Source: a virus
IMG/VR virus record: IMGVR_UViG_3300008952_000213
Coordinates: 1 to 30,249 of that record
Reading direction: 5' to 3' (one strand)
Length of the DNA: 30,249 bases
The notes under the pieces are model-generated. The model searched no databases. It was not told the DNA's origin and saw only the letters and a list, made by a program, of their open reading frames with translations. A program made the position numbers and the translations under genes. Positions 1,173-22,900 of the stretch are shown piece after piece; within the stretch, counting starts at the first letter, position 1; the number at the start of each line of letters is the position of its first letter.

Positions 1173-1750
1173 CCGTGCCGGCCACGGAAGACATCAAGAT
1201 CAAGACGAAGGAACTCGCCGACGTTCTAATGCTGACGACCCGCAGGGTGCAGCAGTTGGCCCAGGGCGGGGTTTTGCCCCGCAAGACGCCTCGGGGTCCA
1301 TTCGATCTGGTTCCGTCGATCCAGGCTTACGTCCGCTTCCTGAAGGAAAGCGCGGGCGCCAGTGACGAAGTGATCGACGGCGAGAGCCATGAGCAGGCGC
1401 GTACACGACTAACTAAAGCCAGAGCCGACATCCATGAACGGACGGCGATGCAGTTGCGCGGCGAACTGATCCACGCCGATGACATCGAAGCGGCCTGGAC
1501 GAAGATCGTGACGATGGTTCGCCAGCATCTAATCGCACTTCCCGACCGTGTCGCTCCGAGGGCACATGACTCAGAATCGCTTGAAGAAACCCGAGGGTTC
1601 CTCAAAGAAGGGGTCCACGAAATCCTCCAAGAACTCGCGGAAGCAAAAGTCGAGTTCGACGATCCCACCCCTACGCCTGACGGGGCATCCAAGGCTGGCT
1701 ACCGTAGCGTCGAAAACGCTGCACGCACTGCGTCCACCTCCAAGCCTTAG
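1169..1750 (+). CDS. terS: Terminase small subunit (Nu1-like)
   Basis: The protein recognises the packaging site and recruits the large subunit. The 193-residue sequence begins with a winged helix-turn-helix typical of lambda gpNu1: IKTKELADVLMLTTRRVQQLAQGG at about residues 8-31 matches the 'k.qlA.i....r.vq.l...G' recognition pattern. A basic segment (RTRLTKARADIHE) follows, then a helix starting RGELIHADDIEAAW, the usual Nu1 multimerisation region. The length is close to lambda Nu1 (181 residues). It starts with GTG overlapping the previous stop. The last 60 or so residues are coded by the same DNA as the predicted N-terminus of the large subunit, in another frame. The family assignment is firm from the N-terminal half and from its position before the large terminase. 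Confidence 0.88.
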   Translation: MTVPATEDIKIKTKELADVLMLTTRRVQQLAQGGVLPRKTPRGPFDLVPSIQAYVRFLKESAGASDEVIDGESHEQARTRLTKARADIHERTAMQLRGELIHADDIEAAWTKIVTMVRQHLIALPDRVAPRAHDSESLEETRGFLKEGVHEILQELAEAKVEFDDPTPTPDGASKAGYRSVENAARTASTSKP

Positions 1751-3665
1751 CGTCTCGGAGTGGGCAGACGAGTACCGTTACCTCTCTCGGGAAACTGCGG
1801 CCGAGCCAGGCAAGTGGCACACAGACCGCGTCCCCTACATGAAGGAGGTGATGGACGCATACAGCGATCCATCGGTTGTGCGGGTGGTGTCGATGTTCGC
1901 GGCCCAGATGTCCAAGAGCGAAGCGGCGATCTGCAACGTCGTTGGGTACTTCATGCACCAAGATCCATCGCCGATTTTGGTGGTTCAACCTCGCGAGCAC
2001 GACGCGAAGCAGTTTTCCAAGAATCGTTTAGCGCCGATGATTCGGGATTCGCCTGCACTGCGGGATAGTGTGCAGGCTCCGAAGACTCGGGACTCCAACA
2101 ATACGATCCTCGAGAAGTCATATCCGGGGGGTCGTCTCATATTGGCCGGCAGCAACTCCCCTCAAAATCTTGCGGGCAACCCTTGCCGAATCGTCCTCTT
2201 CGATGAAACTGATCGAATGACGGCCAGTTCGGGAACCGAGGGTGATCCCATCGAACTGGGCGAGGCGCGTACAGCGACCTTCGGCAACCGGAAGATAGGG
2301 ATGGCCTCGACGCCTACTGAACGCGACACCTCACGGATAGAGAAGGCATACAACGATTCAGATCGGCGCCAGTATTGGGTGCCGTGTCATGCGTGCGGCG
2401 AGTTCCAAATACTGATCTGGTCGCAAGTGCGATGGGAGAAGGACGAAAAGAACCATCATCGCCCGGAGACTGCGAAATACTTTTGCTGCGAGTGCGATGA
2501 ACCGTGGACGGAAGCGCAGCGTCACAATGCAGTTCGCCGGGGTGAGTGGCGGGCACAGGACGAATTCACCGGCACAGCCGGGTTTCACCTCAACGCTCTG
2601 TACTCCCCCTGGTCGAATCTTTCACTGGGGAACCTAGCGGACAAGTGGCTGAAGGCTCAAGGCAAGCCACTGCTACTCAGGACGTTCCTTAATACGGTTC
2701 TCGCGGAGACTTGGGCCGAGAAGTACGAGGCAGTCGATAGCACGGGATTGCTTAGTCGCGCCGAGGCGTATCCGATGGATGGGGCGCAGATGCTCATCCC
2801 GAAGGAGGTGACTGTCCTCGTTGCTGGTGTCGATACTCAGGACGACCGTCTCGAGTTCGCGCTGCACGGGTACGGGGCCGGCGAGGAGTGCTGGCATCTG
2901 GAGTACACGGTTTTGCCGGGTGATCCTGGGACGAAGGATCTCTGGGATCAACTCTGGGAAGTGATCAGCGAGCCGAGATACTCGGAACTGGGCGAGGAAA
3001 TGTTCGTCCGGGCGACGTCGGTGGATACTGGCGGGCACTTCACGCAGCAAGCGTATGCGTTCTGCGGCCCGAGGTTCCGCTACTTAGCGGACAACGGGGA
3101 TCGGTGCTTTGTCTTTGCCATCAAGGGTCAGACGGGGAACGGAGACATTTGGCCGAAGCGCCCGAGTCGGAAGAACATCGGGAAGATCCCCCTGTTCCCG
3201 ATTCGGGTCGCGCCAGCAAAGGAAGTGATTTACTCGCGCCTGAACAAGGTGCGCGATCCGGGGCCTGGGTTCATTCACTTCTCGGATCAGTTCAACGACG
3301 ACTACTACAAGCAGTTGACTGCGGAACGAGTTCTCACCAAATGGGATGCACGCGGATTCCCAAGCAGGGTGTGGGAACTCAAGGTCAAGGGAAATCGGAA
3401 TGAGGTTTTCGATCTAAGTGTGTATGCCTATGCCAGTCTCTGTGGTTTAGAGTCGATGGGTTTCGCACTAGATCGCGAGAGCGAAAAGCGCAGGGTAGAG
3501 ATCGAAGAGCAGGGCCACCCCCCTGGTCTGGAGGACGGCGGGCAACCGTCGGACTCGGTGGCGCCGTCTCCCGCAGCGACGGCGCCACCTTCCCCTGGCG
3601 CGGCGGTGGGTGGACGAGGTGGCTTGAGGCGAGGGGTCTCAAGAAGCGGATACTTGGGGAGGTGA
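1566..3665 (+). CDS. terL: Terminase large subunit (phage lambda gpA family)
   Basis: This is the packaging ATPase and nuclease that cuts concatemeric DNA and pumps it into the prohead. Numbered from ATG 1566 (699 residues), it shows the gpA hallmark SVSEWADEYRYLS, then a Walker A-like AAQMSKSE with Lys117 (the usual Gly before Lys is Ser), the DPSPILVVQP segment, a Walker B-like VLFDETD with Asp213-Glu214, a zinc ribbon (C274-x2-C277 ... C307-x2-C310), and nuclease-type acidic residues Asp423 (GVDTQDD), Asp487 (VDTGGH) and Asp616 (EVFDLSVYAYA). The C-terminus is a Pro/Gly-rich tail. The only in-frame starts before the conserved domain are GTG 1548 and ATG 1566, so it overlaps the small subunit by about 185 bases. 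GAGGG at 1558-1562 is a close ribosome-binding site. The family call is very firm; the start is uncertain. Confidence 0.95.
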   Translation: MTQNRLKKPEGSSKKGSTKSSKNSRKQKSSSTIPPLRLTGHPRLATVASKTLHALRPPPSLSVSEWADEYRYLSRETAAEPGKWHTDRVPYMKEVMDAYSDPSVVRVVSMFAAQMSKSEAAICNVVGYFMHQDPSPILVVQPREHDAKQFSKNRLAPMIRDSPALRDSVQAPKTRDSNNTILEKSYPGGRLILAGSNSPQNLAGNPCRIVLFDETDRMTASSGTEGDPIELGEARTATFGNRKIGMASTPTERDTSRIEKAYNDSDRRQYWVPCHACGEFQILIWSQVRWEKDEKNHHRPETAKYFCCECDEPWTEAQRHNAVRRGEWRAQDEFTGTAGFHLNALYSPWSNLSLGNLADKWLKAQGKPLLLRTFLNTVLAETWAEKYEAVDSTGLLSRAEAYPMDGAQMLIPKEVTVLVAGVDTQDDRLEFALHGYGAGEECWHLEYTVLPGDPGTKDLWDQLWEVISEPRYSELGEEMFVRATSVDTGGHFTQQAYAFCGPRFRYLADNGDRCFVFAIKGQTGNGDIWPKRPSRKNIGKIPLFPIRVAPAKEVIYSRLNKVRDPGPGFIHFSDQFNDDYYKQLTAERVLTKWDARGFPSRVWELKVKGNRNEVFDLSVYAYASLCGLESMGFALDRESEKRRVEIEEQGHPPGLEDGGQPSDSVAPSPAATAPPSPGAAVGGRGGLRRGVSRSGYLGR

Positions 3666-3668
3666 ACG

Positions 3669-3887
3669 ATGGCATTCTCGTCGGCGGATTTGACGGCAAT
3701 CGAAACCGCAATGAAGAGTGGAGAGTTGGAGGTTGAGTACGGCGACCGTCGCGTGAAGTATCGCAGCATCATGGAACTCACGCGCGCATACGAGGTGATC
3801 AAGTCTGCGGTGAATGAGCCCGCGACTGCGAGCTCTCGCACGGCGAAGCAAGTTCGCTTTGCAGCCAAGCGAGGGTTTGGCAAATGA
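3669..3887 (+). CDS. Head-tail joining protein gpW-like
   Basis: This 72-residue protein matches the small gpW family: an N-terminal helix (SADLTAIETAMKSG), then the short hairpin LEVEYGDRRVKYRS, a second helix (IMELTRAYEVI) and a basic tail. Lambda gpW (68 residues) binds the portal after packaging, stops DNA leakage and creates the platform for gpFII. The gene sits three bases after the large terminase and overlaps the portal start by four bases (ATGA), exactly the lambda A-W-B order. AGGTGA lies just upstream of the ATG. Confidence 0.88.
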   Translation: MAFSSADLTAIETAMKSGELEVEYGDRRVKYRSIMELTRAYEVIKSAVNEPATASSRTAKQVRFAAKRGFGK

Positions 3888-8105: not shown

Positions 8106-8144
8106 GAGGGGCGGGGTCTTCATTGACCTCGCCCCTCTTCTTTG
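8106..8144 (+). terminator. Rho-independent terminator after the major capsid gene
   Basis: A 13-base-pair stem (8106-8118 with 8125-8137, GAGGGGCGGGGTC/GACCTCGCCCCTC, one G-U pair) with a six-base loop is followed by TTCTTT. It sits 31 bases after the capsid stop and just before the FII-like gene. It probably reduces or partly stops read-through from the heavily expressed head genes. Confidence 0.85.
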
Positions 8145-8470: not shown

Positions 8471-8911
8471 ATGGCGGGAATCCACGTTAGGAATCGGATC
8501 CTCGCCGAGGTGAAGGCTCATCTGATGAACCTCCCGACGACCGGGGTCAACGTCTTCGACGACCCTGCGGAAGCAGTCTCGGATGAGAGCCTGCCTGGGA
8601 TCGTCATTGAGCCTGGACGCGAGAGCACGGAGTCACTCGGTGAAATAGGTGAACCCGATGCAGGGTACATCCAAGACCGGGCACTGACCGTGAACGTGAC
8701 TGCGATTGCGAAGAGCATTGCTCAACGCGACCAGTCCGCAACAGAGATTGAAGAGGCCATTTTGTCGTCGTCGATTGGTGTCAACCGGAAGCTAGATGCG
8801 ACCGACTTTGATGCTTCGGCCGACGGCAACACTCGCCTTTGGGTCTGCGCTCTCAGCTTTGAGATCCAGTACCTGACGGAAAGCAAATACCCGCGACACG
8901 CAGTTCGATAG
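8471..8911 (+). CDS. Tail terminator / minor tail protein U-like
   Basis: This 146-residue protein has the gpU pattern: an N-terminal helix (HVRNRILAEVKAHLMNL), a strand with VFDDP, then LPGIVIEPGRE, the central RALTVNVTAIAK strand, a helix (SATEIEEAILSS) and a C-terminal strand pair (LWVCALSFEIQYLT). gpU (131 residues in lambda) forms a hexameric ring that stops tail tube growth and joins the tail to the head. The position between the FII-like gene and the tube genes fits. A strong terminator follows its stop by 22 bases. Assignment is by pattern and context. Confidence 0.78.
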   Translation: MAGIHVRNRILAEVKAHLMNLPTTGVNVFDDPAEAVSDESLPGIVIEPGRESTESLGEIGEPDAGYIQDRALTVNVTAIAKSIAQRDQSATEIEEAILSSSIGVNRKLDATDFDASADGNTRLWVCALSFEIQYLTESKYPRHAVR

Positions 8912-8933
8912 CGACGTCGCTTATCCGCACATG

Positions 8934-8968
8934 GGCCGGAGCCGCCTTCGGGTGGTTCTGGCCTTTTT
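8934..8968 (+). terminator. Rho-independent terminator with a UUCG tetraloop
   Basis: A 13-base-pair stem (8934-8946 with 8951-8963, including three G-U pairs) is closed by the very stable UUCG loop and followed by five Ts (8964-8968). It lies between the U-like gene and the first tail tube gene and separates head-completion genes from tail genes. No obvious promoter consensus was seen between it and 9010. Confidence 0.9.
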
Positions 8969-9009
8969 GCGTTCACTTGCCGGGAACCCGGCATGAGGGA
9001 GAGAAAATC

Positions 9010-9441
9010 ATGGCAACCGGAGTTCTCGTCAAAGGGACCAAGGTTTACCGGGCACCGGAAGGCACCACAACTTGGGCGGCGATTGACAACTTGGGGTCGA
9101 TCACGGGTCCAAATGCCACGGGCGACCACATCGATGTGACCAACCAAGATTCAACCGACAAGACGCGACAGTGGCTACCTGGGCTGGTGAATCCTGGGTC
9201 GATCAGTTTTTCTTGTAACTACGATCCCACAGACAACACTGGCGTAGCTACCCACAACCAACTTCTTGCCGACTCCAGTGCAGGGACTCTGTTGGAGTGG
9301 AAGCTCGAGTTTGCGAGTGGGTCCGACGCGATGACGTTCCCTGGTGTCGTGACGAAGGCAGAGTTGAGTGCGCCAGTTGACGGTGCGTTGATGCTCGACG
9401 TCGAGATCACGATTACCGGAGCAATCACCTGGCCCACTTGA
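9010..9441 (+). CDS. Tail tube protein, copy 1 (gpV-like)
   Basis: This is a 143-residue protein of the phage tail tube family, the stacked-ring subunit of the non-contractile tail. It shows the pattern GTKVYRAPEG...WAAIDNLGSITGPNATGDHIDVTNQD, then a SISFSCNYDPTDN strand, FPGVVTKAELSAPVDG and the terminal ITITGAITWPT. It is the shortest of three tandem paralogs and the most divergent in its loops. ATG 9010 follows GAGGGAGAGAAA and is preferred over an upstream in-frame ATG at 8977 that overlaps the area after the terminator. Whether this or copy 2 is the main tube protein cannot be decided from sequence alone. Confidence 0.85.
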   Translation: MATGVLVKGTKVYRAPEGTTTWAAIDNLGSITGPNATGDHIDVTNQDSTDKTRQWLPGLVNPGSISFSCNYDPTDNTGVATHNQLLADSSAGTLLEWKLEFASGSDAMTFPGVVTKAELSAPVDGALMLDVEITITGAITWPT

Positions 9442-9517
9442 TCCGCGTTTAGTCACGCGGGTGGAAGTATTCAAAACACACGACCGACATCGGCCTGTGT
9501 GAGAAAGGGAAATACCT

Positions 9518-9976
9518 ATGGCAACCGTAGCTTGGTTTGGCAAGGGAACAAAATTGCAACGCGACACGGGCGCAGGGAGTGCGTTTACCGACATTGCAAA
9601 TATCACATCGATCAGCGGTCCAAGTGCTACTTCAGACCAGATCGACATCACTTCGCACAACACCACTACGAGATTCCGCGAGACGATTGGCGGGCTGCAA
9701 GATGGTGGAGAGGTCAACGCATCGGTCAATTACGATCCGACTGTGGTGTATAATTCAGGCGATCCCACCACCGACAGCACAGGTCATAACCGATTGATGC
9801 AGGACTTGGAAGACGGAACGGAGGACAACTACAAAATCATCTTCCCCGATTCCAGCAACCATGAGGTTTTGTTTCCGGGCGTCGTATCCAGTGTGTCCTT
9901 GAATTCTCCGATTGATGGAGTTCACACCATGGACATCACCATCAAGATCGTTGGAACGATAACCTGGCCTACTTGA
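9518..9976 (+). CDS. Tail tube protein, copy 2 (gpV-like)
   Basis: This 152-residue paralog of copy 1 reads GTKLQRDTGAGSAFTDIANI, then TSISGPSATSDQIDITSHN, RFRETIGGLQDGGEVNASVN, a middle loop with YNSGDPTTDST, and FPGVVSSVSLNSPIDG before the ITIKIVGTITWPT end. It is clearly closer to copy 3 than to copy 1 (TSI.GPS.S.DQIDITSHN.T.RFRE is shared). The ribosome-binding site AAAGGGA stands about eight bases before the ATG. It is separated from copy 1 by 76 non-coding bases holding two short hairpins without T-runs. It probably forms part of the tube or a tube-tip ring. Confidence 0.85.
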   Translation: MATVAWFGKGTKLQRDTGAGSAFTDIANITSISGPSATSDQIDITSHNTTTRFRETIGGLQDGGEVNASVNYDPTVVYNSGDPTTDSTGHNRLMQDLEDGTEDNYKIIFPDSSNHEVLFPGVVSSVSLNSPIDGVHTMDITIKIVGTITWPT

Positions 9977-9990
9977 TAGAGAGGTGAAGT

Positions 9991-10746
9991 ATGGCAATTA
10001 AGGCCAAATTCGCGAAAGGCACACTCCTGCAACGTCAGTGGCCGGTTGCTGGTGTCCGAATCGAAGCACAGGAGAACAGCTCCGCGTCGTCTCTTTTGGT
10101 TGTAAACGCAGATGCCCCAAATTTCGATATTGGCGATCTCGTCCACTATTACGCTAGTACCCAGACAGGGCAGGGTGATATCGTGCAAAATATCGTCTCG
10201 GGGAAAACAGCGGGCGCGACGCACACCACGCTAGATATGGAGTACACCCATAAAACCGTAGTGCAATCCTCATTGACCGCGGATGATGGGAAACTCTGGT
10301 ACTACGACTACGAAGACATTGGCAACGTCACTTCTATCACGGGTCCGTCCCCATCAACAGACCAAATCGACATAACCTCGCACAACGCGACAAGTCGTTT
10401 TAGGGAATCATTCCCTGGTGGTGGGTTGCTTGAAAGCGGGGAACTTCAAGTCTCCTTAAACTACGACCCAGGACTGGTGGGTAGCACGTTTGCGGATAAC
10501 GACTACTACTACAAAAACAAGAATGACTTCAATGATCTAGTGTCGGAACTAGATCAAACAAATAAATACGTCGATTGGAACTGGGACGTAGTTTCGCCAC
10601 GTTGGAGGTTGAACTTTCCTGGCACCCCAAAGAATGTGGCTTTCAATGGCCGCATCACAGGGGCTGTCTTCGGAGCACCAATCGACGGGGTACATAACAT
10701 CGACCTAACAATTAAAGTTGACGGCGACATCACCTGGCCGACGTAG
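9991..10746 (+). CDS. Tail tube protein, copy 3, with inserted beta domain
   Basis: This 251-residue paralog has the same start (KGTLLQRQ), core (SITGPSPSTDQIDITSHN, near 113-130) and end (GVHNIDLTIKVDGDITWPT), but carries about 90 extra residues between residues 15 and 106 and about ten more in the C-terminal half. The insert contains NFDIGDLVHYYAS and VQNIVSGKTAGATHTTLDMEY, a beta-like segment similar in style to inserts in other tail proteins of this phage. The ATG follows GAGAGGTGA, 14 bases after the stop of copy 2. The insert probably projects from the tube as a surface decoration or marks a special ring. This is inference from where the alignment breaks. Confidence 0.82.
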   Translation: MAIKAKFAKGTLLQRQWPVAGVRIEAQENSSASSLLVVNADAPNFDIGDLVHYYASTQTGQGDIVQNIVSGKTAGATHTTLDMEYTHKTVVQSSLTADDGKLWYYDYEDIGNVTSITGPSPSTDQIDITSHNATSRFRESFPGGGLLESGELQVSLNYDPGLVGSTFADNDYYYKNKNDFNDLVSELDQTNKYVDWNWDVVSPRWRLNFPGTPKNVAFNGRITGAVFGAPIDGVHNIDLTIKVDGDITWPT

Positions 10747-10770: not shown

Positions 10771-11205
10771 ATGGCAGCAGCAAACGGGACTTACGCGACA
10801 CGCGATCAAATCCTCTCAGCGGACGACCTGGGTTACGAAGACTTGGTTGTGCCGGAATGGGATGGTGCAATGGTCCGTATCCGTGAACTCACGGGCACGG
10901 AGCGCGGCGTCTTTGAGAAGTCGATCTCAAAGGTGTCGAACAATGCCGACGGCACGACGAATGTCGAACTCGAGGCGCAGAATCTCCGGGTGCAGCTTTG
11001 TGCGCTCACGATGGTGGACGGTGAAGGCAAGCGACTCTTTGCCGACCATGAAGTGCATCGCCTGGGCGAGAAGAGTGCCAAGGCACTCCAGCGGGTATTC
11101 GACGTATCCGCGAAACTGTCTGGAATCTCCGACGACTCCGTGGAGGATGCCGTGGGGGAATCCGAAGCCATCCCGAGCGACGAGTCACCCTCGCCCTCTG
11201 CCTAG
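10771..11205 (+). CDS. Tail assembly chaperone (gpG-like)
   Basis: This 144-residue protein has the gpG pattern: MAAANGTYATRDQIL, then a beta-rich segment (VVPEWDGAMVRIRELTGTERG), a helical middle (LRVQLCALTMVDGEGKRLF) and an acidic Ser/Pro-rich end (ESEAIPSDESPSPSA). In lambda, gpG and gpGT coat the tape measure during tail assembly and are absent from the mature virion. The gene begins 24 bases after copy 3 of the tube gene, with AAGGAG upstream of the ATG, and lies directly before the T frame and the tape measure, as in lambda. A probable -1 frameshift site lies at 11154-11160, 45 bases before the stop. Confidence 0.8.
   Translation: MAAANGTYATRDQILSADDLGYEDLVVPEWDGAMVRIRELTGTERGVFEKSISKVSNNADGTTNVELEAQNLRVQLCALTMVDGEGKRLFADHEVHRLGEKSAKALQRVFDVSAKLSGISDDSVEDAVGESEAIPSDESPSPSA
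11154..11160 (+). promoter_or_regulatory. Probable -1 ribosomal frameshift site (G GGG GAA)
   Basis: The gene G codons here read GTG GGG GAA, giving the heptamer G GGG GAA with five consecutive Gs (11154-11158). The -1 frame is open from 11052 (after a TGA at 11049) to the T-frame stop at 11498. It encodes the expected gpT sequence without a good start of its own, so slippage is required somewhere in 11052-11205. A -1 shift re-pairs tRNA-Gly on GGG and tRNA-Glu on GGA with one wobble. No better X XXY YYZ heptamer was found in the open interval. Confidence 0.7.
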
Positions 11206-11498
11206 CCCTGGGCATTCCGTCGAAGCGCGAGCTGTATGCGCGCTTGACCTCGTCGGAGATCACCGAGTGGCTCGCGTTTTATGCCGTGGACCCTTGGGAT
11301 GGCGAACGGAAGTACGACCTCCCGGCCGGGATCGTGGCTTGCACGATTGCAAACGCGAACCGTGGGAAAGAAGGCAAGGCATTTCAGCCGAAGGACTTCA
11401 TGCCGAAGTTCGGTGTGACGCAGGAAGAGAATGACGGGGGACAGTCCGTGGAAGAGCAGATCGCTATTCTGAAAGCCATGACTGGCGGGGGCAGGTAG
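11157..11498 (+). CDS. Tail assembly chaperone frameshift extension (gpGT-like, T domain)
   Basis: This -1 frame continues gene G. After the shift it reads through a basic linker into LALCLALGIPSKRELYARL, then SSEITEWLAFYAVDPWDGE and ACTIANANRGKEGK, ending FQPKDFMPKFG and a Gln/Glu-rich tail. These are the hallmarks of DUF4035/gpT, which binds the tube protein and helps its polymerisation on the tape measure. The only in-frame start-like codon near the conserved part is TTG 11244, with no ribosome-binding site, so production by frameshifting as a G-T fusion of about 242 residues (10771 to 11498) is much more likely. It ends five bases before the tape measure gene. Confidence 0.8.
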   Translation, partial: GIRSHPERRVTLALCLALGIPSKRELYARLTSSEITEWLAFYAVDPWDGERKYDLPAGIVACTIANANRGKEGKAFQPKDFMPKFGVTQEENDGGQSVEEQIAILKAMTGGGR

Positions 11499-11502
11499 GT
11501 AG

Positions 11503-14500
11503 ATGGCGCTCCGCGACCGCATAGTCGTCAAACTGGGCCTAGACCCCGATCAATTCAATCGTCAACTGAAGACGACTGAGCGCAGGCTGAAGAATACTGC
11601 CCGTGGTCTCGAGTCATGGGGACGCAAGGCGAGTATGGTGTCTCTGCCGATTGCCGCTGCGGGGGGCGCCGCAATTAAGGTCGCTACGGACTACGAAGCG
11701 TCCTTGACGAAGATCAAAACCCTAGTGGGCATAAACGCGAAACAGGTTGATGACTGGGGCAAGCAGATCCTAGAGAAGTCAGGCGATCTCGGTCGCGGCC
11801 CCAATGAACTCGCAGAGGCTCTGTTCTTTGTGACATCCGCCGGCCTGCGATCCGCAGCGGCGCTCGACGTTGTGGAGATGTCCGCGAAGGCATCAGTCGT
11901 CGGGTTGGGTAACACAGCAATCGTTGCGAAGTTGGTTGTCTCTGCGATGCAGGCTTATTCAAAGTCTAACCTGACCGCAAAGGATTCAGTCGATGCCCTA
12001 ATGGCAACCGTTCGATTCGGCAATATCGAGTCCGAAGAGTTGGCCGGGTCGATGGGCCGCGTGATGGGTATCGCCGCAGAAATGGGCGTGTCCATCCAAG
12101 AGGCTGGCGCCTTTGTTGCGACTTACACCAGAGTCGGCGTTGATGCCAATATCGCCACGACCGCACTACGCGCCACGCTTTCAATGCTCCTCGGCCCCGG
12201 CGACCAGGCAAGGCAAATCCTACAGAGGCTAGGGCTCACAGTCGAGGAGATGCACGCAAGGATACGGGATGACGGACTAGCCAAGACGCTTGTCAATATC
12301 GCCAACGCAACCGACATAAACGCAATCGCGCTGGACGAGCTCATACCTAATATCCGAGCGTTGGCGGGTGTATTGGCAGTCGCCAAGTCGCAGGGCGAGG
12401 TGTATCTGGACATCGCTGGGAAGATGGCACGGGGTGAGGTGTCTACGCAGGAGGAGTTTGAGAGGACTCGGAAGACGGCGAAGTTCATGTTTTCGTCACT
12501 CGTTGCGGAGATAGAGGTTTTTGCGACAAAGGTGGGTTCGCTATTCCTGCCTAGGGTCGTAGCGATTGTGACTGGTCTGATAGAGTGGGCCAAACAGTTG
12601 TCTAAGACTTCAGACGAGACCAAAGAATGGATTGTTGCGGTCGGGGCAGGCTTGGCAGTGATGGGGCCATTTGCGTTGGCGTTGGGTGCCGTCATCCACG
12701 TTATCACTCCGGTCGTGATAGGGCTAAAGGCCATGACTCTTGGTCTGTTGAGTTTTACAGGGGCGACTGCTCTGGCAACCAAGGCTGTGGTCATATTACG
12801 GGCGTCTATGATTGGAACCGCCGCCGCCACAGCCGCCGCATGGGCTAAACCAGTGGCAGTTATTCTTGCGATTGTTGGCGCTGCGGTAATCGTCAGATCA
12901 GCGTTTTCCGAGTTGCTTATGCAATCCAATTCGCAAACCGAGGCTATGAGAAAAGACTGGGGGACCGTAGGTAGGGTTTTCTCCTGGCTTAGTATCAAAC
13001 TCCAACAACTCGGAATCGACGCAGTGATCGCGTCTCTTCATTTCGGCAAGATTGGGATTGCTATTGCGGGTCTTGTGCGTGGACGTAAGTGGGCCGACCA
13101 CCAAATAAAGAACATCGATCTCGTTATTGCCGGACTGGAAGAGACTAGGCTCGGGTTGATGAAGACCCATGAAGAGTTCTACAAGTTCCAGGCAATGTGG
13201 AAAGACGCAAGGGCGACCGCACAAACAGGCAGTTTGATCGACCTTACCCTCAACTACGGAGACGGCGCACCAGAGCGGGACTTGATGGCAAGGGTCGAGG
13301 AGTTGCAAGAGCAAGCAGATCAACTGGTCGCCAGTTTTGGTAGCGATCTTGGGCTTGCCGCAGCTTCAGACGGTGGGAAAAAGGCACTTGAGTCACTAAT
13401 GAAGGAGTTTCAGTCGATAACAACTGCGACAGAAGATGCCTTTGCCTTCTCCGATCTCGACAAGGAAATCCTACAACTAGAACGAATCGGCGAGAGAGTC
13501 GGAGATGCGTTCGACTCGCTATCAAAGACACCGGAAGGACTGATTAAACTTGCCGCAGTATTCAAGAAACTCCCACTAGAAAACTTCCTTAATACTGACG
13601 ACCTCGCGTCTAGTCGTGCGGAGTTGATCAACTTCTTCCAGAATTATCTCTCGCTTCAGTTCCAGGCAACGGATGCAGCCAATGAGTACGCTGATGCGAT
13701 CTCCCGTGCGGATAACGCATCAAGCGGAATCCGGTCCATGTTTGAGGGGTCAAAGAAGTCTCTTGAAGATTTCCTTGCGGTGACCGAGGTCGAGAAGTTT
13801 GAGAAGAGTATGAGGCGTGCCCGATCCGAGTTTTCCGGGTACGTTAAGGAACTCAACAAGACAGAGGAGGGACGTCAGAAAATAGAGGATCTAAAGGTTT
13901 CGCTGGGAAGGGCTGGCATCTCAGCATCTCAGTTGGGCGAAGAGATATTTGCTGCGATGAGTAAGGCGAACCCAGCGATAGTCACTGCAACGTCGATGGT
14001 GAGGCAGTTGCAGAGAGACATCGAGGACGCCGCAGCGAAGACGCCCGAGGCAATACTTGATCTCAAGGTTTCGCGTGGCGAATCCGACTTTAGGGATGCA
14101 TTGGCTGGACTCCAGGGTGGTGGACACACGGAAACCCTAGAAGCACTTCGGAAGTCCATAGGTGCGGTAACGACCGAGACCGAAGACATGGTATCGGCCT
14201 ACGGAGCCTGGTTGCGACAGATGGAAGCGGACTCAATAAACGTCAAGATCATAGACGATCTACGCGGCAAGTTCTCAGAGCTTGAGAAATCCATTAGTGA
14301 ATCGCTCGCGACGACTGATGCAGAGAAGTTCGCGAGGCGAGTCAAGGAAAGTGCCGATGAGGTGGAAGTACTTGCCAATAAATTCTCCAAGGTAGACGAG
14401 GCAGGGTTCGTTAAGGTTGCGATGGAGATCCTGAAGCTCAAGGGGGAAACAATATCGGCGACGGAAGCAGTCAGATTGCTCGGTGAGGCGATGACCGATG

Positions 14501-15501
14501 GCATGAATCAGATGCACCCATCGATCCAGTCCGCAATCGGCATGGTAGATGCCATGAAAAATAAACTGGCCGAGGCGAACGCAACCTCTGACCTTGAGAA
14601 GTTGGAACTGGCCGTCAACAAGGGCGCTAGCGCATTCCGAAAACTCGTTGATTCCATCCCCGACAACAATGCCGGGAGGGACGCTCTCAATGCGTTGAAG
14701 GTGTCACTCGGGACCGCCACCACTGATTCGGGCGAACTTGCGGAGGCTTATTCAGCCATGATCCGCAGCATGGAAGAGGACTCAAAAACCTTCAAGATCA
14801 ACGTCGGCGAGATGCTTGCGGGTTCGATGACCCAGGTATTCACCGGGATCGCACGCGGCACCCGAGAGGCGAAGGACATCCTGAAGGGGTTCCAAGACTT
14901 CACGATCAACGTCTTCGGCCAGATGTTCTCTGAGATGCTCAAGTCGAAGTTGGACTTCGATGCGGTGTGGGAAAAGAACTGGCTCGAGGACATCCCTGGT
15001 GCGGTCAAATCTGGGATGAAGTCTGTGGGGGAATTCGTTCTACAGACAATGCAACTCGTAGTCAATGCGATAGGTGCCGGATTGGGTCTAGATTGGAACT
15101 TTGGTGGTGGGTTAACCGCACCGGCCGGTACAGCGGCTAGGGTTGATGCCAGTGCGGCTGCCGGCGGGCCGACGATGGAACTGGCAACCGGAGGAATAAC
15201 CACCGGGCCGAGGCTTGCCATGGTCGGCGACAACCCGTCAGGCACCGAGGCGATCATACCCCTGGAGCGATGGAAAGAGGTGATGGGCGGTGCGGGTGGT
15301 GGTGGTGGCACGCAAGTCGTCATCCACGCGCCGACTGCGCTGATGAGCCAGAAGCGCAAGCAGGACTCTCAGGGCCGCGAGATGCTGGAGTTCATCTTTG
15401 AGGGTGCCAAGGGTGCGGTGGCGCAGGACATCATGCAGGGTGGCGAAGTCTCGCAGGCCATGTCGGCGGCATTCGGCGCCAAACGCGGAGGTGGTCGCTG
15501 A
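11503..15501 (+). CDS. Tail tape measure protein (TP901-type core)
   Basis: This 1332-residue protein fixes tail length and is expected to pass into the host membrane at infection. The N-terminus reads VVKLGLDPDQFNRQLKTTER, then helical segments with a TP901-type core: ATDYEASLTKIKTLVG, GDLGRGPNELAEALFFVTSAG, VRFGNIESEELAGSMGRV and LGPGDQARQILQRLGL. Residues about 375-468 are hydrophobic (two or three possible membrane spans, e.g. WIVAVGAGLAVMGPFALALG). Residues about 761-1098 contain about four repeats of 86-91 residues. The C-terminus has LATGGITTGPRLAMVGDNPSGTEAIIPL style, typical of tape measures. A GGGGGCAGGTAGG run stands upstream of the ATG. It directly follows the chaperone genes and its stop overlaps the next ATG. 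Confidence 0.93.
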   Translation: MALRDRIVVKLGLDPDQFNRQLKTTERRLKNTARGLESWGRKASMVSLPIAAAGGAAIKVATDYEASLTKIKTLVGINAKQVDDWGKQILEKSGDLGRGPNELAEALFFVTSAGLRSAAALDVVEMSAKASVVGLGNTAIVAKLVVSAMQAYSKSNLTAKDSVDALMATVRFGNIESEELAGSMGRVMGIAAEMGVSIQEAGAFVATYTRVGVDANIATTALRATLSMLLGPGDQARQILQRLGLTVEEMHARIRDDGLAKTLVNIANATDINAIALDELIPNIRALAGVLAVAKSQGEVYLDIAGKMARGEVSTQEEFERTRKTAKFMFSSLVAEIEVFATKVGSLFLPRVVAIVTGLIEWAKQLSKTSDETKEWIVAVGAGLAVMGPFALALGAVIHVITPVVIGLKAMTLGLLSFTGATALATKAVVILRASMIGTAAATAAAWAKPVAVILAIVGAAVIVRSAFSELLMQSNSQTEAMRKDWGTVGRVFSWLSIKLQQLGIDAVIASLHFGKIGIAIAGLVRGRKWADHQIKNIDLVIAGLEETRLGLMKTHEEFYKFQAMWKDARATAQTGSLIDLTLNYGDGAPERDLMARVEELQEQADQLVASFGSDLGLAAASDGGKKALESLMKEFQSITTATEDAFAFSDLDKEILQLERIGERVGDAFDSLSKTPEGLIKLAAVFKKLPLENFLNTDDLASSRAELINFFQNYLSLQFQATDAANEYADAISRADNASSGIRSMFEGSKKSLEDFLAVTEVEKFEKSMRRARSEFSGYVKELNKTEEGRQKIEDLKVSLGRAGISASQLGEEIFAAMSKANPAIVTATSMVRQLQRDIEDAAAKTPEAILDLKVSRGESDFRDALAGLQGGGHTETLEALRKSIGAVTTETEDMVSAYGAWLRQMEADSINVKIIDDLRGKFSELEKSISESLATTDAEKFARRVKESADEVEVLANKFSKVDEAGFVKVAMEILKLKGETISATEAVRLLGEAMTDGMNQMHPSIQSAIGMVDAMKNKLAEANATSDLEKLELAVNKGASAFRKLVDSIPDNNAGRDALNALKVSLGTATTDSGELAEAYSAMIRSMEEDSKTFKINVGEMLAGSMTQVFTGIARGTREAKDILKGFQDFTINVFGQMFSEMLKSKLDFDAVWEKNWLEDIPGAVKSGMKSVGEFVLQTMQLVVNAIGAGLGLDWNFGGGLTAPAGTAARVDASAAAGGPTMELATGGITTGPRLAMVGDNPSGTEAIIPLERWKEVMGGAGGGGGTQVVIHAPTALMSQKRKQDSQGREMLEFIFEGAKGAVAQDIMQGGEVSQAMSAAFGAKRGGGR
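13783..14800 (+). repeat. About four tandem protein-level repeats in the tape measure gene
   Basis: Repeats begin at about 13783, 14041, 14311 and 14584 (residues 761, 847, 937 and 1028), giving spacings of 86, 90 and 91 residues; the fourth is shorter, ending near residue 1098. Shared signals include 'E.K', 'L..LK.S.G....' and 'A....M..M..' patterns, for example DLKVSLGRAG, EALRKSIGAV, EILKLKGETI and NALKVSLGTA at equivalent places. Variation is high, so these are old duplications. They likely set tail length in steps. Confidence 0.65.
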
Positions 15502-16585: not shown

Positions 16586-16995
16586 CAGAGGGTTGGGCAT
16601 CGAAATACATTGGCATCCCGTATGAGTCTCAGGGGTACACGATTTCCGGCGCCAACTGTTACGGACTTCTCGTACTCGTCTATCGTGATGAACTAGCTAT
16701 CGATCTGCCCTGGTTTGTGGAACTGAACCCAGAGAATAAAGAAGACAGGGAAGAATACGACAGGGTTTGGAGCGAAGGTCGGGGGTCAGACTGGTCCCCG
16801 GTCACACAAGGCGAAGAGCGTGCCGGTGACGTTGTTGATCTAACTGTTCTTGGCCTCCCCCACTGTGGGATCGTTGTTGGGGGCGGGGCGATGCTTCACT
16901 CGAGGCCGGCAAGTGGATCGAGTATTGAAAGTTATCAGAGAGGACTGTTTTGCAGGCGAGTGAACAACTTGTACCGGCACATATCGATGCTGTAG
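16582..16995 (+). CDS. NlpC/P60 tail peptidase (gpK-like)
   Basis: This 137-residue protein is a cysteine peptidase of the NlpC/P60 type, expected to cut the peptide part of peptidoglycan during DNA entry. The catalytic Cys26 sits in GANCYGLL, His94 in LPHCGIVVGG, and GAMLHS (His106) follows as in other members. The usual Asp before Cys is Asn here (Asn25). Lambda gpK combines a JAMM domain and an NlpC domain; only the latter is present here. The gene overlaps the upstream gene by four bases and the J-like gene by 46 bases. It may be attached at the tail tip. Confidence 0.87.
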   Translation: MTEGWASKYIGIPYESQGYTISGANCYGLLVLVYRDELAIDLPWFVELNPENKEDREEYDRVWSEGRGSDWSPVTQGEERAGDVVDLTVLGLPHCGIVVGGGAMLHSRPASGSSIESYQRGLFCRRVNNLYRHISML

Positions 16996-19900
16996 AAGGG
17001 TCTCCTGGTGGAGTTGCGCCGGATGGCTACTTCCGACTCGTCGTGCTCCCGTCTCCCTTCCGATCCGAGCGGAGAGAAGTTGTCGCCCCTGTCGGAACCT
17101 CTGTGCGCGAACTTGTCGAAGAGATATTCGGTCGTGAGGTCAACGAAGAGGTAGACTCGTTCCGCGTTGCGGTAAACGATACGTTTTCTGAATCTAAGCA
17201 TGGCTTCGATGAGGAACCTAAGAGCGGCGACCTCGTCATTGTTCGCGCTGTGCCTGGGTTCGGCTTAGAGCACTTTATCGCACTCTTGGTTGTTTCGGCG
17301 ACTCTGCAAATCGCAGGGTATGCGACTGGCAACCAGACGCTGATGCTGATCGGCGCGGGAATAGGGTTGGTAGCGTTCGGTGCTGGTATCGCGGCTGGAC
17401 CGGGTGTGGTTTCTGGAGCGGCACTCTCCTACGGTTCTCTTGCCCTTGGCGCGGCGAATCTTCTCGGATCTCTTATCGCCCCGCAGCCGCACAACCAAGC
17501 ACAGAACAGTTCGTCGGTTGCCCAGTCAGGTTTTTTGCAGGGAGTTGGGAATAGGGCGACCCCCTGGAAACCGATTCCGATGGTTCTTGGGAATACGAAG
17601 TTCGCGCCACCTCTCGGAGGCCAGCAAATCAACGAAGTGGTCGGAGACGTTGTCTGGCTACGCACTTCGTTTTGTCTCGGCTATGGGCCACTCGACTTCA
17701 CCGAGGACGACATATTTCTCGGAGACACTCTTCTCTCTGATTCAGAGTACGACACATACGAGGTTGAGATTCGGCAAGGCTTTCCATCGGATGCCGATGG
17801 ATTCCTGTATAGCGGGTCGTTCAGTCAGCAAACTGTGAACGCAAGCCTAGCGGAGCGTGCCGCAGACCAAGAAGACTGGATCGACCTTAGCCCGGAGGCA
17901 CCCAGCGTAGATGCGGTCAGTTCCCATGAGTCAAATCCGTATGTGACCACTCCTACGAACTATATGGTGGTGAGTTGCGGTAGCGCGTATTCCACGGCAT
18001 GGTCAACGGCATCTGGATTTGACGTCGAGCACGAATTGGTGCAGTGGGGAGTGGATGGTGCCAATGAGGGGAGGGGAATAACATACAAGTGGTATGAGGC
18101 AGCCGACGCGCCCATAACTAGACCCTTTACAGCACAGGGGCCTCTGGCCTTTAGTGTAGATATTTTGTGGGACCGGAATGAAGGGAATTGGCCCAAGCCG
18201 GGTGACATTATCAAGAGAGTCTCTGATCCAACAGTATTCGCGACTGTACTCGGAACAATCGGGAGGTCGATCCCCATTAACAGTGGGTCGGGTAGAAACC
18301 ATCCAGGGGCGAATAGCGAGGGTGTCGCCCTAGACGCCTACAGCACAAGGCTGGATACATGGACATTTTTCAACCATCAAGTAGCCGGATCCCCAGAACG
18401 GACACAGACTGGGTATGTCTACGATCCTGTGAGCAATACGACGGGCGCGTCGTTGGGTGCCAATCAGATTTATATCGGTCGTGGTGATGCACAGAGTGTC
18501 GTAGCAGACTGGTTTAAGGGCAATGCAAATGCGGGCCGTTGGTTTATCATCCAACACTACGTTCTGCAAGGTGGTGTAATTGGTGGAGTAGAGGTTGAGA
18601 CTTACCCACTGGGCGACGGTTCGACTACAAACGCTTCTAGCAGAGTAGAGGGGTTTCTGTTTAGGGAGGTACAGATAGGCGAGAAGGTTTGTATCCACCT
18701 CGACGACAACACTTGGCAAGAGGTCACCATCACCAAGAAGTCTGACAACCTATCAGGAAGAAACTTTGGTGACTTTCTCGGTTGGGGCGGGCCGGAGGGT
18801 GTGTACGATAGTAATTCAACACCAGACCCGAGAACGACTGACCAGATGTACTGGACGAAGGTTGAATTCACCCCAGCTCTCACAGCAAGCGCGGCACGAA
18901 GAAACCACATCATCAGGTTTGGGGCCAGGTGGGAGACGCGGACGACTCCGGTTGGCACGACAGAGTACACCATAATCCTGTTCAACCCTGGTGGCATGGC
19001 TGGGCCATCACAATCGACCCGTTACAACGACATTGTTGTTTGGCATCGCGTGAAAGACATCGGCGGCGGGGTGCCCGGAAACTGGATTGCAGTCGGTCTG
19101 GCTGGAGACACCAACCTTACCGATTTCCCCATGGAAAACGTAACGCTCGAGGGTACAAACTTTGAGCGCGTTGAATCCAAGGTAAACCGGATATCGTCTA
19201 CCCACGTTTTGCGATGGTCTGGCGAGGTGGGTGGTGATGGCTTCGCACACATCCGGGTAACAGGACTCGACGCAGACCAATACGACGTTCGGGTCGGAGT
19301 TGGAAACTACGGGGGGGATCGTACCCTAGTGACGGAAACGGCGGAAGTTTCGTGGACTGCGCTTACAACAAACTCGATTGCTAACACGATCTCTCCGACT
19401 GTCAAAAATTTGTCTTATGTGAATGTTTTGCTCAAAAGCACATCGGAGAGAACGGGCGTAATCGATGAGCTGCGCGTGAACGCGCAGGCACTCCAGTCGT
19501 ACTATACGAAGGGCGCGGGGTCGAATAACGGGTACTGGACCGACCCCGAGCCTCCGTCAACGCGGGGGCGGGTTAGTGGGGCGCACTCCGTGTCTGAGAC
19601 GACTATCGAGGTAAAGCCCTGGGACTACTATCAGGTCAAAACAGGCACATCCCTAGCGGAGTCAGAAATATGGATTCCGATGACTGGCATTAGCTCGGAC
19701 CTAACCTTCCGAGACTCCGATAAGATTATCATTCAGTCGTCAGCAACGGACGCGGATAGTACAACGGTTGGTGGACAGACGTTCTCGTCTACTGCCAAGC
19801 TGAAGTACACGGTCATTTCTGTAGACCGTACTAACAACCGCATCAAGCTAGACAGGGGCTTGGATGACGACGGTGCCGGCAAGTGGTCGTCTGCGTCGAG

Positions 19901-22900
19901 TAGCACCCTGTGGGTACGCACAGACACATCCGGGTCGGACGACGGTCTTCTGCGACTAGAGAACAGAGACCCCGTAAGAATCCAAAAGCCAGATGATACA
20001 TGGTTCTCGACGACCACTTCTGGTGGCGTCGAGGGTTACATGATTGTGACATCGGACACAGTCAACCCGCTTCTCTACTCCCCACCCGACCTAGATTTCG
20101 ATGGCTCATCCTACAAGAAGATCCGCATAGCACTCAGGGAAGAAAGCGTAAACGCTGCGTCATCGTGGCTCGGTCGGATTTACTGGACAACGACTACGGC
20201 AGGAGAGAATACCTTCACCGGAGGCGACCGTTGCAAACAGGTTATATGGCCCGAGCCGACTTGGCCCGGTTCTGGATATTCTGAGATAGAGATCGATATG
20301 TCTGGGTTTACAGCCTGGACAACGAGAACGATCACGCAGCTTCGGTTGGATTTTTCTAACCCAGGGACGGTTGGCGACATTTACCACATAGACTACGTCG
20401 CAATCGGGGACGTAGGCAATGAGATACACCGTTGGGACTTCGGTGGCGTAACGGAGGGATGGCTTGGCAGTGGTGTCAGCAATAGCGCATACGGAGAGAT
20501 CACCCTCAATGACGCGCTACCAGTTGGTGGTATCTCAGATGCAGCCAGGGTCGAGTTCGATTACGGATCGTTCAAGACCAACTCTCCAGCATCGGCATTT
20601 GCGTCGGTTCTCCGGGGGTCCGCACAACCCACACCGATTGCCGATTCACACATCGACTCTGATGGACTGAAGGATTGGCACGACATGACGCTTGATCCCG
20701 AGGGAGATGGGTCGCAGCCCGCGATGAAACTGAATAGCGTAGTCGATTTTCGGGGAACGACTTTCGATATTTTGTCCCGTATCGCATCATCGGGTAGGGC
20801 TTCGGTTCACTCCAAAGACTCCCGAGTTTCGGTGATCTATGACAGGAACAGATCGTCGGAATATCCGATCCAGATGTTCACGGCGCGTAATATCGTGAAG
20901 GGCAGTTACGGTGCCAGTTGGACATACACCGATCTACCACACGCAGTTCGCGTTCAGTACAACGACTCTGAGGGGAGGCCACAGGAGGTCGTCGCCTACA
21001 AGGATGGATACTCATCAAGCGGATCAGTTGGCACCACGGTAGCCACCCGCTTCGATTCCATGTCTGCGTGGGGGATTACGACCCGTGAGGAGGTTTACGC
21101 CTATGCAATCTACCACCTCAAGCAGATGGATAGGCGTAATGAAATTGTAAACATTGATGTAGACATCGAGGCGTCTATTGTGGAGCGAGGCGATCTAGTC
21201 TTGCTTTCCCATGACATTGAGTTCACGGGTCTCGCGTCTGGGCGGATCAAGTCAGAAACGCATTCGGGGGGCGCCGGGAGCACTATGGTTTCCGTTACCC
21301 TCGACGAGACGCTTACATATGAGCAATCCGAGACGTATAAAATCCGTGTGAGGCGTAAAGAGCAGAACGACTTCCCCGAGTACGATATAGACAATCCAGC
21401 CTCGGGTGCTCCACCGGACGTAGAGAGCAACGTCGTTACTTTCGCCAGTCCGGTCGAGGACAGTGAGATCCAGGATGACGCGCCGCACATCGGTGATGTT
21501 GTGGTCTTTGGGACTACCACATCGACACCAAGGAGAATGATCGTTCAGTCGGTCGCTCCGAAAGCGGACCTATCTGTGAAACTTTCGATGGTTCCCGAGG
21601 CGCCGGAATTGTTCACAGTCGATCTCGCGGCGGCTGCGGCGGGCGGCTTCGCTACCTCAAGCCCAGTCGGGTCAACCTTCGGATACACCAAACCAGATCG
21701 ACCGACGATTATAAGCTCGAGGACAAAACAGTCATCGGACAACCCCCTCTTCTACTCCATCGTTGCGACTGTTGTGCCACCCGGTGTCTCATACGGTATG
21801 GGCGGAGAAACCTTTATCGAGGTCAAGTGGAAGTCTGGGATGGGTCGCCCGAGAGGTGGTGGCGGTAGGAGGCGCGCACCGAGCCCCGGTACGATTGGTG
21901 AAACTAAAAGATTCAACGCCGACGACGGGGCTAAAACTCTCACCTGGCTCGACGATATACACCTCTCGGTGACGCCTCTCGGTAAGCAGGTCACGATTAT
22001 GGCAAGGACGGTCAGGGTTGGTGCCTTTGGTGACTCCAGATCCAGAGTTGCATCGAACTGGATACGACACACGACGCGGGTGCCAATCGGTGATGATCTC
22101 CTCGCTTCCACTCAGCCGGTCGTTGCGAATCTATCCGCCGGCAAGCAGACGGTGGCATCAGACACTTTCTCTTTCGATGGTACAGATGCAAAGGCGACTT
22201 GGAGCAGTGCCGTTATTCTTAATGAAGACTCTGGTGATATGAACGCAGCGACCGAGTTATACGGTGGACTGACGAACGAGTCTTCGATTGCTCCGAGGAT
22301 CGCGGATATGTCATTCAATGTCGGGATTTCAGAATCAGAAACGGGGAGATTGCTGCGGACTGTTGCAGTGCCGGGGTCGGAGAGCAGTCTGGTATATCGA
22401 CTGGAGGATAATATCGCAGACGGTGGACCCCACCGAGCCATCTCTTTCTTGGTTACTCCGACCCATAAAGGTAAGACCGGAACGTCGAGATTGGTATCGA
22501 CCGTGAATGAGGCGCACCCCGCTCCCAAGATACTGTCAATCGTGCAATCCCTGACAGGTTTAGTTGTGACACTCGACCGCAACTGGGACATCCGAGAGGA
22601 CTTGGCGGGTGTCTTGATTTGGGCATCCCAACAGTCCGGTTTCACCCCAAGCGAGGCAAACCGTATCTACTCTGGTCCGATGCGCGAAGTGCTCAAGCTA
22701 CCGACGATGGAACCAGTCACTTGGTATTTCCGCGTAGCCGCCTTCGACTGCTACTTCAGAGACAACGGGGATTACTCTGGCCTAGTGAAGACAGACGAGT
22801 TTTCTTCGCGCCTCATCCCATCTACGGACACTCAAAGTCTTCTTCTGGCAGAGACTGGCGGAAACCTCCACCCCGATCCCATCCTGAAATACAGCGGAGA

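Follow-up and report, generated by a model that had tools for sequence, protein, structure and literature searches.

The tail of a siphovirus is commonly regarded as a homopolymer built from a single tube protein. Phage lambda has a single tube gene, lying between the tail terminator gene and those of the gpG and gpT chaperones, with the tape measure gene beyond, and its product gpV carries a C-terminal Ig domain. In solved tubes, contact between rings is made mostly by the β2–β3 loop. The β1–β2 loop lies on the outer face and meets the sheath in T6SS and, in lambda, the Ig domain (PMC8718954). Several departures from the simple homopolymer have been described. That a siphovirus tube can combine undecorated and decorated subunits has its experimental precedent in SPP1, whose tube mixes gp17.1 and gp17.1* at 3:1 (PMC7666168); the long form arises by translational frameshift from one gene, and its decoration is a dispensable C-terminal FN3 domain. 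YSD1_22 and JBD30 gp44 have a domain that is inserted in the tube fold and lies outside, in each case encoded by a single gene, and pb6 of T5 has a duplicated tube domain fused in one chain. The presence of two major tail proteins has been noted for several clusters of actinophages (PMC11080557, PMC10652937), and our literature search returned no study explaining the role of extra tube copies or how the copies share a tail.

Here we analyze a tail module with three tube genes, T1, T2, and T3, in a 30,249-base IMG/VR record from an uncultured phage (hereafter the window). A phage with three tube types would make it possible to ask how rings choose their partners and whether distinct segments can exist in one tail.

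Three tandem genes in the tube slot

T1, T2, and T3 are separate open reading frames in series on one strand, each with a purine-rich stretch 5' of its ATG (Table 1). An earlier note, made from the sequence alone, had described them as tandem paralogs with a common start, core, and end, and our alignments bear this out. Local identities are 39% for T1/T2, 40% for T2 and the T3 core, and 31% for T1/T3, and since the pairwise alignment scores lie 24–40 standard deviations over those of shuffled sequences, the likeness is not due to chance. All three have KGT near the start, the motifs SI.GP and D.ID(V/I)T, and ITWPT at the C-terminus. T2 and T3, which the note had picked out as the closest copies, are indeed the nearest pair (48% identity over the trimmed core) and form a clade with branch support 96/91 in a tree of twelve tubes. 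Fourteen positions, several of them within the inter-ring loop, are invariant in eight tubes that include T1–T3, and all three proteins therefore still look constrained as tube proteins.

Table 1. Positions in the window of the tube genes, their loops, and neighboring features.
Feature	Position	Strand	Description or evidence
Tail terminator	8471..8911	+	PHROG 4204 9e-13
Stem-loop and T run just 5' of T1	8933..8964	+	14-pair stem; region 8912-9009 z -3.96
T1	9010..9441	+	Tail tube protein, 143 aa, without extra domain
T1 β2–β3 (inter-ring) loop	9112..9186	+	Unlike T2/T3
T2	9518..9976	+	Tail tube protein, 152 aa, without extra domain
T2 β2–β3 (inter-ring) loop	9623..9697	+	Close to T3
T3	9991..10746	+	Tail tube protein, 251 aa; tube core plus insert
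T3 insert, residues about 16-106 (~91 residues)	10036..10308	+	Alignments; strand positions in T2/T3 models
T3 β2–β3 (inter-ring) loop	10348..10428	+	Close to T2
Tail assembly chaperone, gpG-like	10771..11205	+	PHROG 344 8.5e-25
Tape measure protein	11503..15501	+	PF10145 2.3e-21

That T1, T2, and T3 are tail tube proteins, as proposed in the same note, and of the lambda gpV type is supported by profile matches, structure predictions, and synteny. None of the three matches PHROG 2645, the family of the multi-copy tubes described below; they match PHROG 158 ("major tail protein") instead, T1 at 2.2e-22, T2 at 1.9e-19, and T3 at 1.3e-6 over residues 106-249. Among the lambda-type tail tube families in Pfam, T1 matches PF16460 (47.9 bits, cut-off 28.4) and PF16461 (31.3 bits, cut-off 26.1), and T2 matches PF16461 (38.0 bits, cut-off 26.1); T3 alone stays under the Pfam cut-off (18.1 versus 28.4 bits). 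The AlphaFold model of T2, built on an alignment of eight sequences (pLDDT 64.6), matches lambda gpV-type tubes in Foldseek with an E-value of 5e-9 and a TM-score of 0.69. The model of T3 is less confident (pLDDT 56, with parts of the core at 70–83), and its best matches are again lambda-type tubes (E 1.3e-4, probability 1.00) at a low TM-score of 0.26. The predictions thus support the tube β-sandwich fold, well for T2 and weakly for the T3 core, and for T1 the fold is assigned by homology only.

The three genes occupy the normal tube slot, with the tail terminator on one side and the tail-assembly chaperone on the other, and the gene order (capsid protein E, head closure, tail terminator, T1–T3, gpG-like and gpT-like chaperones, tape measure) is the standard lambda-like series. 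The sequence family, the predicted fold, and the neighbors are thus those of lambda gpV-type tubes, but this tail module holds three homologous tube genes where lambda has one, and unlike gpV, T1–T3 have no C-terminal Ig domain.

An insert in the first loop of T3

The earlier note had credited the third copy with about 90 extra residues forming a beta-like insert. The length holds, at about 91 residues, but the beta-like nature found no confirmation, because the AlphaFold model gives the segment a pLDDT mostly below 50 and searches of Pfam, PHROG, and phage sequences returned no family match. The insert interrupts the β1–β2 loop, after the KGT.LQR block and before the block starting DI.N.TSI.GP. 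A second addition, which the note did not mention, makes the loop past NYDP about 20–25 residues longer in T3.

Since the β1–β2 loop points outward in solved tubes, the insert should, by analogy, be displayed on the tube surface, clear of the lumen and of the ring interface. An exterior domain is also what YSD1_22 and JBD30 gp44 have, although the YSD1 insertion site is α1/β4, and insertion at the β1–β2 loop was not found among the solved tubes in the literature that we examined. Two possible resemblances, neither of which entered the interpretation, were recorded: against a domain in the relative L019 (14009-14743), 12 of 1000 shuffles scored equally high, and against the chaperone protein, the best of 19 comparisons, 11 of 5000 shuffles scored as high.

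Copy number and origin of the copies

Most lambda-like phages have one tube gene, as the note had stated. With T2 as the query, all 26 matching phage records carry the tube at one place only, and the same is true of all 34 records matched by a tube of the relative L009. We also searched 399 Pseudomonadota genomes with the PHROG 158 profile, setting aside matches limited to its C-terminal (Ig-like) part; by our own count they hold 45 prophage tube loci, one of which is an adjacent pair (genome G395, contig L170) of two open reading frames 3 bases apart.

PHROG 2645 phages are different in that multiple copies are the rule, with 480 places in 243 phage records. In Microbacterium phage Count, three proteins of this family are annotated as major tail proteins (gp22, gp24, and gp25, 41–47% identical), and Arthrobacter phage Shiba also has three copies. 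Together with Microbacterium phage Damascus and Streptomyces phage Soshi, these phages resemble the window in carrying two or three paralogs in one late block, some of them with extra domains. They belong to another sequence family, however, their copies are separated by an extra gene (gp23 in Count), and their extensions are C-terminal, whereas the T3 addition is an insert in the first loop. One such protein is Shiba gp18 (L171 5001-7040; 679 residues), annotated as a "minor tail protein", which has a full PHROG 2645-type tube domain at its N-terminus and is flanked by two further tube genes. Several tube paralogs are therefore no rarity in tailed phages overall, given that two or three occur in phages of PHROG 2645. 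Multi-copy tubes as such are known, but three copies of the lambda type were absent from every other record searched here. Judged from its genes, it is plausible that this phage has an unusual tail architecture, for which the note had suggested a mixed tube or special rings at the tip or head end. Families of tube genes have separate origins in at least the lambda-type (PHROG 158) and PHROG 2645 lineages.

Queries with the terminase, portal, and capsid brought up relatives of the window. T2, A1, and T3 found no relative when used to scan viral contigs, and T1 gave one weak match only. Of the relatives found, the closest two, L077, which is the same contig as L019 (portal 71% and capsid 67% identical), and L078 (portal 69%, capsid 67%), each have a single tube gene in the slot between terminator and chaperone. 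L009 (IMGVR_UViG_3300032278_000313; portal 59%, capsid 49%) has two, an 80% identical pair. Copy number is thus lineage-specific, with one, one, two, and three tube genes in L077, L078, L009, and the window. L011 was left out because it looks like a contractile-tailed relative, with a large sheath-sized open reading frame and no PHROG 158-type tube. L009 and L170 resemble the window in having adjoining PHROG 158 tube genes, but they have two rather than three, and neither has an insert.

In the twelve-tube tree, the two L009 genes fall with the L078 tube (92/96), and T1 falls with the L077 tube, though not firmly (support 82/79). A single clade uniting the L009 doublet with the triplet of the window was rejected (AU p 0.009), so the two arose separately. 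Monophyly of T1, T2, and T3 was not rejected (AU p 0.30), and T2 and T3 need not be a separate acquisition. Their G+C content is unusually low for the contig (50.4%; 4 of 968 windows are equally low), whereas that of T1 is average, which fits a separate origin of T2/T3 without proving it.

The inter-ring loop

For all 66 pairs of tubes, we ranked the difference between identity in the β2–β3 loop and identity in the rest of the protein. The T2/T3 pair ranks first, with 18 of 25 loop residues identical versus 49 of 115 (43%) elsewhere. The T1 loop shares 10 of 25 residues with T2 and 8 of 25 with T3, which places these pairs at ranks 58 and 62. The test is small and was devised once the alignment was known, and with other loop boundaries T2/T3 rank third or seventh of 66. 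Because the T2 and T3 loops are so similar, these two proteins probably stack or mix together, and because the T1 loop is unlike theirs, T1 probably forms its own rings, which counts against free mixing of all three copies. We regard this as moderate evidence, drawn from sequence comparison, that T2 and T3 would touch one another within one tube into which T1 rings are not freely mixed.

The loops of the L009 tube pair are identical at 24 of 25 positions. At the DNA level, the two L009 genes (9087-9512 and 9554-9961) have a mosaic pattern of identity, in which a stretch of about 90 bases over the inter-ring loop has three differences; this near-identity is suggestive of gene conversion.

A proposed composite tail tube and its alternatives

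We put at about even the chance that T1, T2, and T3 are all genuine subunits, present in the virion, of one composite long non-contractile tail tube. T1 would then be the tube protein passed down vertically, the counterpart of the one copy in the sister phages, and T2 and T3 would represent a second tube type that was duplicated later. By gaining a domain in the β1–β2 loop, T3 may have become a surface-decorated version of T2, comparable to gp17.1* beside gp17.1 in SPP1. In such a tube, T2 and T3 would stack or mix together, and T1 would form rings of its own. Both the low G+C content of T2 and T3 and the independent, loop-conserving L009 doublet were counted in favor of the composite tube. 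The likeness to SPP1 has its limits: the window has separate genes rather than a frameshifted long form, and T3 has an insert rather than a C-terminal domain. The low-confidence model of the insert and the dispensability of the SPP1 decoration count against this reading. The T5 tube also differs, as its duplicated domains share a chain. Since plain copies are sometimes paired with a domain-bearing one, the arrangement suggests a general way of decorating tails, and the cultured PHROG 2645 phages, which have a similar genetic arrangement, make this idea testable now.

Terminal rings with a tube fold are formed by gp48 and gp54 of T4 and by Afp5 and PVC5 of contractile injection systems. By analogy, one copy could build the tube and the remaining copies could make specialized rings at its tip or head end, a division of labor that would explain both the extra segments of T3 and a T1 inter-ring loop unlike those of T2/T3, as expected of a subunit with other neighbors. 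All three genes, however, lie in the major-tube slot and not past the tape measure gene, the location of the genes for lambda-like tip proteins, and the sister phages manage on one tube gene amid the same flanking genes. We consider such end rings unlikely, if the best of the alternatives.

Slightly less probable in our view is a tube built in blocks, with two ring classes set by the inter-ring loops, T1 filling one stretch and T2 mixed with decorated T3 another, so that the surface domain would occur on part of the tail only. It is also doubtful, and by our estimate slightly more so, that a single copy works as the tube and the others are transitional or low-level leftovers of duplication or module exchange, with no distinct role. 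The unstable copy number among close relatives, the viability of single-copy lineages, and the off-average base composition of T2/T3 agree with such leftovers. Against them, all three copies are intact at 31–40% identity, tightly spaced, and conserved at core residues; being divergent yet intact, they have been retained over a long period.

Two further alternatives carry little weight compared with the composite tube. Monomeric phage tail tube protein binds and triggers the host sensor DSR2 (PMC11087589), and a second, divergent tube might evade or dilute such recognition, but three tube types would offer more triggers, not fewer, and no defense-type gene was found among the right-end genes tested, making escape from host sensors very improbable. 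An assembly chimera of two phages is least credible of all: the contig is metagenomic, T2/T3 have a low G+C content, and the tube genes are not covered by a second contig (L004 and L008 end before them), but either flank resembles one and the same set of relatives (L077, L078, and L009) with the gene order preserved, and an assembler would hardly yield three divergent, intact, in-line copies with normal spacing.

Other features of the window

The very strong stem-loop just 5' of T1 may be either a terminator-like or an mRNA-processing element. Stem-loops also precede the single tube gene of L078, where they are not stronger than in shuffled sequences, and the sequence upstream of T1 yielded no sigma-70 promoter. 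Another very strong stem-loop with a T-rich tail (8106-8137, z -5.8) lies between the capsid and head-closure genes.

Near its end, the gpG-like chaperone gene contains GTG GGG GAA (11152-11160), and the -1 frame is open (11154-11498) to the stop of the gpT-like open reading frame; from the sequence, a lambda-style G/GT -1 frameshift is likely here. The terminase small subunit gene is preceded by a minor tail protein-like gene (195-1172, PHROG 1924), an arrangement also found in L009. In L009, the terminase large subunit (1723-3771) is present as two open reading frames in one frame, split by a stop codon that may be real or a sequencing error. The central tail fiber J homologue of the window is encoded at 16950-24275 by an open reading frame of 2441 aa, of which only about residues 1206-1557 match PHROG 31.
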